This document shows, piece by piece, positions 5,503-61,632 of a DNA stretch of 64,000 nt. This DNA comes from Lacipirellulaceae bacterium. Its GTDB lineage: Bacteria > Planctomycetota > Planctomycetia > Pirellulales > Lacipirellulaceae. Made by a program: the position numbers and the translations under genes. A model generated the notes under the pieces. It had not been told where the DNA came from. It did not search any database and worked only from the letters and a program-made list of their open reading frames with translations. Location: positions 186,001 through 250,000 of the forward strand of contig JAVJRG010000012.1 of the NCBI GenBank assembly GCA_040218535.1, in the 5' to 3' direction. Every line of letters starts with the position of its first letter. The first letter of the stretch is position 1.

Positions 5503-5514
5503 TTCGTGGGGGTT

Positions 5515-5542
5515 TTCAGTTGTCAGTTTTCAGTGATAAGTA
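5515..5542. repeat. TTTTCAGTTGTCAG-type short repeat
   Basis: Direct reiteration of TTTTCAGTTGTCAG directly upstream of alaS. The same motif recurs at 41421-41452, 42490-42519 and, inverted, 42555-42587, always between genes. Confidence 0.7.
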
Positions 5543-5642
5543 CCTGACGTTCGTTGTGGGTCTCGCCCACGCCTGGAACGATTTTCACGACAGAAGCCCC
5601 CTATCATATCGCCCGCTAGAGAATCGGACTAGCGCGGGGTGG

Positions 5643-13441: not shown

Positions 13442-13753
13442 CAAAAGGGAAAGGGAATTGATGAAATACTTGCTTAGCGCGACAGGGACGCCGCGTTTGA
13501 AATTCGCGATTTCAGGGATTCATTAGCAAGCAAGTTCGAGTAATAGAGAGCAAGCCGCTCTTGCGACTGGCTAGCAGACCGTTGCGACAACCTCGACTCA
13601 TTGGAGGGCTGGTCACACTCGTGTCTCCATGAGGGCTTAGTCGTAAGCCAGAAAGAAGGCTTACAAGAAAGTTGAGAAAAACTTTCGAAGAAGTTGTTGT
13701 GTGAGGTGGCTTACACAACGAGCCTCGTCGATCGCGTCAAGCTTGCTGGAACT

Positions 13754-14066
13754 ACCGCGAAGCGGTTCCATCCCATAGCCCAGGGTAAGATCATCCGAGC
13801 CTAAGCGAGGAGGATCGCCACCCTGGGTTACCGTTATGCCCAACGTCAGCGACCGAGCGAAAAGGCTTAATTACCGGTGGCGGATTGACGAGGTTGCAAA
13901 GGGCCGAGGTAATCCTTTCGCATTTCGACCTCGGTCGGACTCTTCGGTACTCACAACTTACTGCTCGGTCGATTCTCGTCTACTACTCTAACCCAGGGTA
14001 CGATCACACTCGCTGGGGCTCGTGATAATCGAACCCTGGGCTATGATATGAAACCCCTTCGGGGTA
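13754..14066. repeat. 314-bp composite inverted repeat, copy A
   Basis: The element is bounded by a small hairpin at each end (ACCGCGAAGCGGT and ACCCCTTCGGGGT). Inside these, ATAGCCCAGGGTA and CCCTGGGCTAT pair. Further in, GACCGAGC and GCTCGGTC pair, and the centre has GAGGTTGCAAAGG facing TTTCGACCTC. Copies B (39463-39778) and C (48582-48895) have the same order and nearly the same length. It ends 24 bases before the stop of the anti-sigma gene. The rest of the 13427-14090 gap (13445-13750) shows nothing I recognise. Confidence 0.9.
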
Positions 14067-14366: not shown

Positions 14367-14372
14367 TAATTA

Positions 14373-14421
14373 GTGGGCAGTGGGCAGTGGGCAGTGGGCA
14401 GTGGGCAGTGGGCAGTGGGCA
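14373..14421. repeat. Seven tandem copies of GTGGGCA
   Basis: Seven perfect heptamer units fill almost the whole spacer between the ECF sigma stop and the anti-sigma start. Such repeats can change unit number by slippage. Here each step would alter spacing, not reading frame, because no gene covers the tract. Confidence 0.95.
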
Positions 14422-14423
14422 GT

Positions 14424-24856: not shown

Positions 24857-24951
24857 AACCCCCAGCTTGCGCTGGGGGCTAGGGGTTCGATACGTTGGAA
24901 AGATTCACTCAAGCGAAAACTACTAGCCCCTAGCGCGAGCTAGGGGTTTTC
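24857..24951. repeat. CCCCTAGCGCAAGCTAGGGG-type palindrome pair
   Basis: Two hairpins, CCCCCAGCTTGCGCTGGGGG and CCCCTAGCGCGAGCTAGGGG, face each other across about 45 bases. The family recurs at 28509-28579, 33861-33924 and 51469-51490. Confidence 0.8.
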
Positions 24952-28508: not shown

Positions 28509-28579
28509 AACCCCTAGTTTGCGCTAGGGGCTAGGGTTGGTGGAGAAGAATCCCTAGCCCCTGGCGCAAGCCTGGGGTT
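28509..28579. repeat. CCCCTAGC-type palindrome pair
   Basis: ACCCCTAGTTTGCGCTAGGGG and CCCCTGGCGCAAGCCTGGGG, about 30 bases apart, between the DinB gene and the solute-binding protein gene. Same family as 24857-24951. Confidence 0.8.
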
Positions 28580-33860: not shown

Positions 33861-33924
33861 GAAACCGCTAGCCCCAAGCGCAAGCTTTTGGGTTTGAACC
33901 CGCGAGCTTGCGCTGGGGGCTAGG
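33861..33924. repeat. CCCCAGC-GCAAGC palindrome pair
   Basis: CTAGCCCCAAGCGCAAGCTT and GAGCTTGCGCTGGGGGCTAG face each other. Same family as 24857-24951. Confidence 0.75.
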
Positions 33925-35565: not shown

Positions 35566-35576
35566 TTGATTACTAG

Positions 35577-35775
35577 ACCCGGGATTTATCCCGGGGTTTA
35601 TGGAAAAACAATGCCATCGACCGAGTAGCAAGGACAACTTACCAACGGGGCCTTACCGAGGTCGAAATAATCCGCGGCTCGTTACGATCTCGGAAGAACG
35701 CCGTCGCTTATCAAACTCAACCGCTCGATCGAGTTAATGGATACCTAAGCTTACCCCGTGATAAATCACGGGGCT
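35577..35775. repeat. Shortened, degenerate relative of the 314-bp composite repeat
   Basis: The outer arms here are GACCCGGGATTTATCCCGGG and CCCCGTGATAAATCACGGGG, both hairpins that also pair with each other. Inside, ATCGACCGAGTAGCAAGG and CCGAGGTCGAAAT match the core of copy B at 39463-39778. The second half of the core is eroded. Confidence 0.65.
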
Positions 35776-35802
35776 AATAATTTCGATTGCCAGAAACAGA
35801 AA

Positions 35803-36474: not shown

Positions 36475-36525
36475 GGGATTCCGTTCCCTGGTTTATTTTT
36501 TGAACCGCGAAGAGCGTCGCCATCT

Positions 36526-36644
36526 TGTCATTCCGACAGTCGTCTCAGCGACGGAGGAATCTAGTCTGGACTCTCGTTCGCAGTGACGACGGACGAGTGT
36601 GCCAACTGGATTCCTCGGTCGGCGAGACTCCCGTCGGAATGACA
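36526..36644. repeat. TGTCATTCCGAC-type palindrome, copy 1
   Basis: A 119-bp element bounded by TGTCATTCCGAC and GTCGGAATGACA, with GACGGAGGAATC and GATTCCTCGGTCGGCGAG inside. Related copies are at 44257-44375 and 61514-61624. Confidence 0.9.
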
Positions 36645-39462: not shown

Positions 39463-39778
39463 ACCCCCGAAGGGGTTTCGTAATTCAGCCCAGGGTTCGA
39501 TCATCGCGAGCGACAGCGAGTGTGATCGTACCCTGGGTCAGCGTCAACAAACCATAATCGACCGAGTAGCAAGGCATGCATGCAGGAAAACTACAACCGA
39601 GGTCGAAATTGGTACGGTCAACCTCTGTCCTTTGCGACCTCGATTAGGTTTCAACGGTACTCAAGCCTTCTTGCTCGGTCGCCTCTTGACGTTCGATCTC
39701 GTACCCAGGGTAGGTCAAAGCTCGCTGGGGCTCGCTGTTGACCAACCCTGGGCTATGTGGTGTAACCGCTTCGCGGTA
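39463..39778. repeat. 314-bp composite inverted repeat, copy B (reverse orientation)
   Basis: Ends ACCCCCGAAGGGGT and ACCGCTTCGCGGT; then AGCCCAGGGTTCGATC / GACCAACCCTGGGCT, GACCGAGTAGCAAG / CTTGCTCGGTC, and core GAGGTCGAAAT / TTTGCGACCTC. Read on the other strand it aligns better with copies A and C. It lies between the Rieske and cytochrome b genes; the remaining bases of the 39409-39824 gap show no other feature. Confidence 0.9.
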
Positions 39779-41420: not shown

Positions 41421-41452
41421 TAGTTTTCAGTTGTCAGTGTTCAGTTTTCAGT
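41421..41452. repeat. TTTTCAGTTGTCAGTG-type short repeat
   Basis: GTTTTCAGTTGTCAGTGTTC followed by a further AGTTTTCAGT, between ribF and nrnA. The next bases carry GCCGGCGAGCTACGCCTCGCC, also seen near 27770. Confidence 0.75.
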
Positions 41453-41462
41453 AGCCGGCGAG

Positions 41463-42489: not shown

Positions 42490-42587
42490 AGTTTTCAGTT
42501 GTCAGTGTTCAGTTTTCAGTTCAGATGGTCAGGTAGCCCGCGAGCTCGTTTACCTTCTGCTGAAAACTGCTAACTGAACACTGAAAA
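42490..42587. repeat. TTTTCAGTTGTCAGTGTTCAG inverted pair
   Basis: GTTTTCAGTTGTCAGTGTTC (42490-) faces CTGAACACTGAAAAC (to 42587) between the divergent ribF and Ppx/GppA genes. Promoters for both must lie in or near this element. Confidence 0.75.
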
Positions 42588-44256: not shown

Positions 44257-44375
44257 TGTCATTCCGACGGGAGGCTCGCCGACCGAGGAATCCGGCATGC
44301 AGTCGGGTACGTCATCAAGGCGAACCAGAGTTCAAGCCGGATTCCTCCGCCGCTGAGACGGCTGTCGGAATGACA
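44257..44375. repeat. TGTCATTCCGAC-type palindrome, copy 2
   Basis: Ends TGTCATTCCGAC and GTCGGAATGACA, inner GAGGAATCCGG and CCGGATTCCTC. It fills the space between the Ppx/GppA gene and the TrhO-RluA gene. Confidence 0.9.
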
Positions 44376-44386
44376 AGTGACGCATC

Positions 44387-48429: not shown

Positions 48430-48438
48430 TTATTCTTT

Positions 48439-49006
48439 AACCACAGAGGCACGGAGGACACGCAGAGTTCGTTCGAGGGTTGATTCTCTCGCAAAGGCAC
48501 CATGACATCTATTGATCGCGGCGCGAAGTGGTCGCAGCGCAAAGTGGGTATGCCGAGGGATGAGGCATACCCTGCAGAAGTACCGCGAAGCGGTTACACA
48601 AAATAGCCCAGGGTTGGTCAACGGCGAGGCCCAGCGAGCCTTGACCTACCCTGGGTACACGATCAAAAGCCATGAGCGACCGAGCGAGAAGTTATGAGAA
48701 CCAGCGGCACACGAACGAGGTCGCAACAGGCCGAGGCAGAACCTTTCCCGTTTCGACCTCGATGACGCTTTTCGGTACTCGCGTCTTGCTACTCGGTCGA
48801 TTCTTGTTGTTGTCTTTTGACCCAGGGTAGGTCAAAAGCTCGCTTAGGCTCGCTCTTGACCAACCCTGGGCTATAGGATGAAACCGCTTCGCGGTAGTGA
48901 TCGAGAATCGTGGCATGGACTTCTTGAGCAAGGAATCCAGCGCGGTGCAAGCACCCGCGGCGAAACCTCTCTGCAAAATCTCCGTGTCCTCCGTGCCTCC
49001 GTGGTT
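48439..49006. repeat. Outer CACAGAGGCACGGAGG arms enclosing composite repeat C
   Basis: AACCACAGAGGCACGGAGGA near 48440 faces TCCTCCGTGCCTCCGTGGTT ending at 49006. The 314-bp element copy C sits between the arms. Together they occupy practically the whole space between pepF and fabH. Confidence 0.85.
48582..48895. repeat. 314-bp composite inverted repeat, copy C
   Basis: Ends ACCGCGAAGCGGT and ACCGCTTCGCGGT; AATAGCCCAGGGTTGGTCA faces TGACCAACCCTGGGCTAT; GACCGAGC faces GCTACTCGGTC; core GAGGTCGCAA / TTTCGACCTC. Same orientation as copy A. Confidence 0.9.
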
Positions 49007-49027
49007 CAAAAAAGGACCACAGCAAGC

Positions 49028-51464: not shown

Positions 51465-51468
51465 CCCC

Positions 51469-51490
51469 TGGCTTGCGCCAGGGGCTACTT
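51469..51490. repeat. CCCCTGGCTTGCGCCAGGGG hairpin
   Basis: Perfect 8-bp stem, TTGC loop. It lies between the GspE-like gene and the membrane protein gene; same family as 24857-24951. It may limit read-through or stabilise the upstream mRNA. Confidence 0.75.
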
Positions 51491-61504: not shown

Positions 61505-61513
61505 TACGGTTCT

Positions 61514-61624
61514 TGTCATTCCGACGGGAGGCTCGCCGACCGAGGAATCGAGTTCACACTTGAGTTGAGTCAACGAGAGTCCAAGCCAGATTCCTCGGTC
61601 GCTGGAAGCTCGGTCGGAATGACA
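61514..61624. repeat. TGTCATTCCGAC-type palindrome, copy 3
   Basis: Ends TGTCATTCCGAC and GTCGGAATGACA, with CGACCGAGGAATC and GATTCCTCGGTCGC inside. It lies between the kinase and the PhoD-like gene; reading through it creates the false N-terminal extension of the kinase. Confidence 0.9.
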
Positions 61625-61632
61625 CGAACCCG

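Follow-up and report, generated by a model that had tools for sequence, protein, structure and literature searches.

A mirrored six-hairpin repeat of a Lacipirellulaceae bacterium and its likely mobilization by an IS200-like Y1 transposase

The repeat, its copies and the structure of its halves

The window analyzed here (the whole 64,000-nucleotide stretch C12:186001-250000 of a 5.36 Mb genome in 13 contigs) contains three copies of a composite repeat of ~314 bp, copy A at 13753-14066, copy B at 39463-39778 and copy C at 48581-48896, each within one base of the position given in the original prediction. The architecture described there is present in each copy, with terminal C-GAA-G hairpins, CCCAGGGT/ACCCTGGG arms, CGACCGAG/CTCGGTCG arms and a CGAGGTCG/CGACCTCG core, and no transposase lies inside the copies, as had been claimed. 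Each half of the element (~145 nt) consists of three successive local hairpins (H1, H2 and H3), and the second half mirrors the first across a short centre. H1 has the form TA-CCNC-GAA-GNGG-T, with the C-GAA-G loop in 53 of 54 aligned halves, H2 the form AGCCCAGGGT...CGAGC-NNNA-GCGAG...ACCCTGGGT, and H3, which makes up half of the core, the form CGACC-GAG...CGA-GGTCG, with CGAG opposite CGAG in 52 of the 54 halves.

Complete elements were delimited with an end model, R2 (H1 + H2, built from 312-bp elements only), and their cores with a core model, R1. Copy A (plus strand, TACCGC...GGGGTA) is bounded by R2 matches at both ends (C12:199753 and 200066) and by the alignment of full elements. Its plus-strand hairpins are H1 (ACCGC-GAA-GCGGT, 13754-13766), H2 (13777-13828) and H3, the left half of the core (CGACCGAG...CGAGGTTG, 13850-13896), followed on the minus strand by the mirrored H3 (CGACCTCG...CTCGGTCG, 13926-13971), H2 (13991-14042) and H1 (ACCCC-TTC-GGGGT, 14053-14065), assigned from the sequence and from the covariation of each hairpin, which for the left H3 is local covariation across families. 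Its whole core of 122 bp (13850-13971, plus strand) is matched by R1 at C12:199850-199971. Copy C is likewise complete and on the plus strand (R2 at C12:234581 and 234896), with its core at 48677-48799 (R1 at C12:234677-234799). Copy B, also complete (R2 at C12:225463 and 225778), has its core at 39559-39681 on the minus strand (R1 at C12:225559-225681). This type of core (type A, 121-124 bp) has an orientation, which in copy B is opposite to that in A and C; the reported reversal of copy B applies to the oriented core, and not to the outer part, which is nearly symmetric.

A search of the whole genome, as the original prediction had advised, here with copy C as the query, returned ~27 places, with E down to 1e-73 for other copies, far beyond what chance would give, so that a shared core and copies elsewhere are found rather than short unrelated hairpins. 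Genome-wide R2 matches pair up into 22 complete elements, ~5 single halves, one gene-carrying version and two flanked tnpA genes (E-values of the home-made models R1 and R2 are rough). The copies are dispersed and intergenic: long open frames hold none of the 20 copies checked, and four copies overlap the edge of such a frame by 14-73 bases. Pairwise identity between copies averages ~70% and reaches 82% at most, so recent activity is not visible. Contig C12, with 30% of the genome, carries 17 of the 22 complete elements (binomial p ~8e-6), and five neighbour pairs lie <10 kb apart against 0.84 expected (p = 0.0005). Close neighbours were considered as sister copies, a reading rejected on their identity of 60-72%, which is no higher than average.

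Single strands of the element fold 8-14 SD better than shuffles, in line with the folding check proposed beforehand. Which structure has been selected was addressed by comparing local hairpins with the long-range palindrome on the same full-element alignment (n=22, 20 from this genome and two from a congener), with 60 pairs for each. In the local structure 95.4% of cells are paired, with 113 compensatory cells against a shuffled mean of 34.2 and 25 pairs with double changes, whereas in the long-range palindrome 84.5% are paired against 83.5% in shuffles, with 45 compensatory cells against a shuffled mean of 33.2; the shuffles ignore relatedness, and the contrast of two structures on one alignment is independent of this. 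The long arm-to-arm palindrome was therefore rejected as the selected structure, its pairing being hardly above that of shuffles and that of the local hairpins well above. The arms of the original prediction do exist; what was described as nested pairs is for the most part local, the arms pairing with each other inside one half, and the idea that nested arms are selected as a unit is not supported, given the near lack of long-range excess, the excess lying in the local hairpins.

H3 is nearly invariant within type A, and across other families its two arms change together (CGACC/GGTCG, CGGTC/GACCG, CGGCC/GGCCG, CGTCC/GGACG, CGATC/GATCG). Local pairing of H3 is Watson-Crick in 282 of 300 positions (perfect helices in 46 of 60) and long-range pairing in 227 of 300 (16 of 60), even with R1, the source of most of the cross-family sequences, having been built on the assumption of long-range pairs. 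Two element halves were folded as DNA, and both were predicted to form H1 and H2. Loops of the type d(C-GAA-G) and the tandem G.A pairs of CGAG/CGAG are unusually stable in DNA; the presence of both motifs fits a single-stranded DNA substrate, and does not prove one.

The partner transposase gene and the end module

The genome has 11 Y1_Tnp matches. One belongs to an intact tnpA gene of 151 aa (L053, C8:260728-261180), and a second tnpA with the same ends (L056, C8:303114-303565) is interrupted by stops. Both stand between H1-H2-H1b and its mirror image. The element that encodes the intact TnpA, of ~670 bp, is separate from the 314-bp repeat, lacks H3 and the core, and has an H2 upper stem unlike that of the repeat. 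R2 matches both flanks of both genes in mirror orientation, with E ~1e-8 to 1e-9 for the whole genome, and has no match in the flanks of the other Y1 genes of the genome (L055 and L057-L063). At 80 related tnpA loci of other species, collected by TnpA protein similarity, R2 was found upstream on the plus strand in 33, downstream on the minus strand in 27 and on both sides in 21, and its density near these genes is 25-fold that elsewhere.

The protein scores 85 bits with Y1_Tnp and passes the IS200 equivalog model NF033573 (62.5 bits, cut-off 55). A RAYT gene, which the original prediction had proposed to look for, is not the partner by the curated model NF047646 (24.7 bits, cut-off 80). TnpA contains the motifs DHVH, WQ and YIENQEEHH, and the signature of TnpA-Y1 subclass 1.2 is DH[IV]H, WQ and Y---Q--HH in ~148 aa (PMC6006769); motifs and length, in place of a tree, thus assign it putatively to this subclass, which according to its 2018 description has no REP, generally lacks IS200-type ends and occurs mainly in Cyanobacteria and Bacteroidetes (PMC6006769). 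Most genomes of the family, that of the congener among them, have relatives of TnpA, and the closest named protein is from Bythopirellula polymerisocia (79%).

The H2-CTA-H1 module at the ends is also that of Acido-Lenti-1 (RF01687), which its original paper lists among probable RNAs, with no function known (PMC2864571), and which continues to be cited, as an 'sRNA', for a possible regulatory role (PMC13298647). No known RNA family reaches its gathering score in the window by Rfam, and in a permissive Rfam search the right end of copy A scores 17.4 bits with RF01687, below the gathering threshold of 37. Among the 40 tnpA loci scanned, RF01687 is found at gathering score in eight (L075, L078, L083, L085, L086, L101, L108 and L113), within ~270 bp of tnpA in all of these except L085, and on both sides of the gene in four (L078, L083, L086 and L113). 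It has matches in 46 of 149 Planctomycetota genomes. When loci were drawn with the RNA model as the sole criterion (n=20, L256-L275), about half carried mirrored -/+ pairs, ~135-190 nt apart, and three had a tnpA of this kind between the matches. Because RF01687 flanks tnpA and forms mirrored doublets, it is probably the end module of this element class, a DNA transposon end and not a non-coding RNA.

Related cores, other ends and other repeats

R1 identifies nearly 40 core-bearing places in this genome. Outside type A, most cores have a different end hairpin (TTATTAGCCCCGGGATTTATCCCGGGGT, type B); the window example, with ends of the CCCGGGATTTATCCCGGGG type, extends over 35572-35780 on the minus strand (from the sequence, outer limits approximate), with its core at 35618-35731 (R1 at C12:221618-221731, E 2e-14). 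There are ~11 type B copies in the genome, one of them adjoining the Y1 gene L055, whose flanks bear matching TAGCCCCGGCATTTATGCCGGGGT in mirror image. The core (113-124 bp) is also present in other genera (G005, G011, G024, G032 and G035) with still different H1/H2. The ends may have been swapped or may have diverged in place, and the latter would fit the different length and centre of the two core types, A and B. In a single case (L226, C8:101249-102324), two mirrored half-elements enclose a 251-aa ORF, which matches no Pfam family over cut-off (P0003) and may be a captured passenger gene; in six relatives, its homologues lack such flanking half-elements, bar one weak single-sided end match.

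Several other repeats occur in the window. What looks like another MITE is a family of ~121-bp inverted repeats, with ends TGTCATTCCGACGG... (36524-36644, 44257-44377 and 61512-61627), that is likewise dispersed and has related pieces in the congener. Short REP-like palindromes of the form CCCCTAGCTTGCGCTAGGGGCTAG lie at 24859-24883, 28511-28535, 33900-33924 and 51465-51489, one of which ends in CTAC, the complement of the GTAG tag, and GTTTTCAGTTGTCAGT-type repeats are found in intergenic DNA at 5512-5549, 41423-41460 and 42491-42542. A perfect tandem AGTGGGC array (14372-14423) is located just outside copy A and has a counterpart in the congener (C1:5881838-5881947). Copy C is flanked by an inverted pair of the CACGGAGGACAC repeat (48433-48469 and 48976-49012), and the orthologous site of the congener contains sequence similar to these repeats, without the element.

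Mobility, rival readings and relation to known systems

Comparison with the congener (G001) bears on mobility. The genes next to copy B, copy C and the type B copy (core at 35618) are syntenic there and the elements are missing, and at the site of copy A the syntenic gap measures 325 bp, compared with 2839 bp here; an exact empty site was sought, and the intergenic DNA proved too diverged for base-exact alignment. The congener has its own diverged copies at other places. No target-site duplication of 2-10 bp was detected, flank matches equalling shuffled values, in agreement with the behaviour of Y1 enzymes. Just outside the element, positions -2 to -5 are rich in A (19-23 of 44), and the element ends in TA in nearly all copies.

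The suggestion of a non-autonomous mobile element is thus supported by copies that are dispersed, intergenic and missing at the congener's orthologous sites, with the ends of the genome's own IS200-like Y1 gene. The repeat is likely (probability about three in four) a non-autonomous REPIN-like transposable element, mobilized in trans by the Y1 TnpA via single-stranded DNA hairpins. H1 and H2 would serve as the recognition ends, each half folding as single-stranded DNA, and TnpA, as a member of the IS200/IS605-like Y1 HUH superfamily, would bind the hairpins when the DNA is single-stranded, for example in the lagging-strand template, and would cut and join at the ends with no duplication of the target. 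Within this account, mobilization in trans, the single-stranded intermediate and the part played by H3 and the core are inferences.

The hairpins could instead be selected as RNA, as proposed for Acido-Lenti-1, the repeat being a structured RNA or a terminator or mRNA-end element that has multiplied. Strong local covariation would look alike for RNA, the copies are intergenic, and the end module resembles a family filed as sRNA (RF01687). This reading is nonetheless improbable given that the same module stands mirrored on both sides of tnpA genes, that its doubling in mirror image leaves no strand preferred, and that the sites are unshared with the congener. About equally improbable is an old and now immobile family kept as intergenic DNA structures used by the host, as proposed for BIMEs. 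BIMEs and REPs offer precedents, host use as protein-binding or supercoiling-related sites having been proposed for BIMEs, and the strong divergence of copies with a conserved structure, as well as the stops in the second tnpA with these ends (L056), would agree with immobility; against it, the sites differ from those of the congener, an intact tnpA persists, and local clustering fits spread better than placement, though neighbours are not sister copies. The inverted terminal repeats and the TA at nearly all ends also recall classical MITEs derived from DDE transposons, for instance of the IS630 type, with TA target duplication. The A of the terminal TA, however, covaries in the H1 stem (A-U 45, G-C 4, U-A 2) and hence belongs to the element, no 2-10 bp duplication is found outside the ends, and the gene between the matching ends is of the Y1 and not the DDE kind. 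This origin, the least probable of the three, was rejected on the position of the terminal A within the stem and the absence of target-site duplications of 2 bp or more outside the ends.

The non-autonomous Y1 element favoured here resembles several known systems. In common with REPINs/BIMEs and their RAYT (TnpA-REP) (PMC3116915, PMC8266576), it forms an inverted hairpin doublet in dispersed intergenic copies, here as 22 complete mirrored copies of two inverted REP-type hairpin units, and its genome has a Y1 gene that these hairpins flank, with no target duplication. It differs from them in its three hairpins per half (one REP in a REPIN), in its length of ~314 bp and in its core, which is conserved and covarying; its transposase, moreover, does not pass the RAYT model. 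The GT[AG]G tetranucleotide was not found at the hairpin foot, where ATAG, CAG or similar stands before H2 and a variable flank before H1. With the IS200/IS605 family and its non-autonomous (PATE-like) derivatives it shares a protein that passes the IS200 and Y1_Tnp models, terminal hairpins in common with TnpA elements of its own genome (L053 and L056), and the lack of duplication. By contrast, H1-H2-H1b stands on either side of tnpA in mirror image, no tnpB was noted, and the non-autonomous element has a core missing from the tnpA element. The transposase has the DHVH, WQ and Y---Q--HH motifs and the length (~150 aa) of subclass 1.2 (PMC6006769), and unlike the subclass as reported, it is accompanied by mirrored ends and a non-autonomous family, and is found mainly in Planctomycetota and Verrucomicrobiota. 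Acido-Lenti-1 has the same module, yet is catalogued as an sRNA, and copy A of the window scores below its threshold.

More tentatively, and with somewhat less than even odds, one widespread class of single-stranded DNA mobile elements, partly misfiled as non-coding RNA, may unite the subclass 1.2 tnpA genes with the six-hairpin elements and with the mirrored doublets of Acido-Lenti-1. Its planctomycete branch would place a conserved core on several end types with different cognate transposases, and its halves would be able to enclose a passenger gene (as at C8:101249-102324). The reading favoured above gives subclass 1.2 ends and a mobile-element identity, both of which it was reported as generally lacking, together with a non-autonomous family, and offers a concrete new reading of the Rfam 'sRNA' Acido-Lenti-1. 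How Y1 transposases read DNA hairpins could also be examined on these multi-hairpin elements, in which compensatory variants occur naturally.
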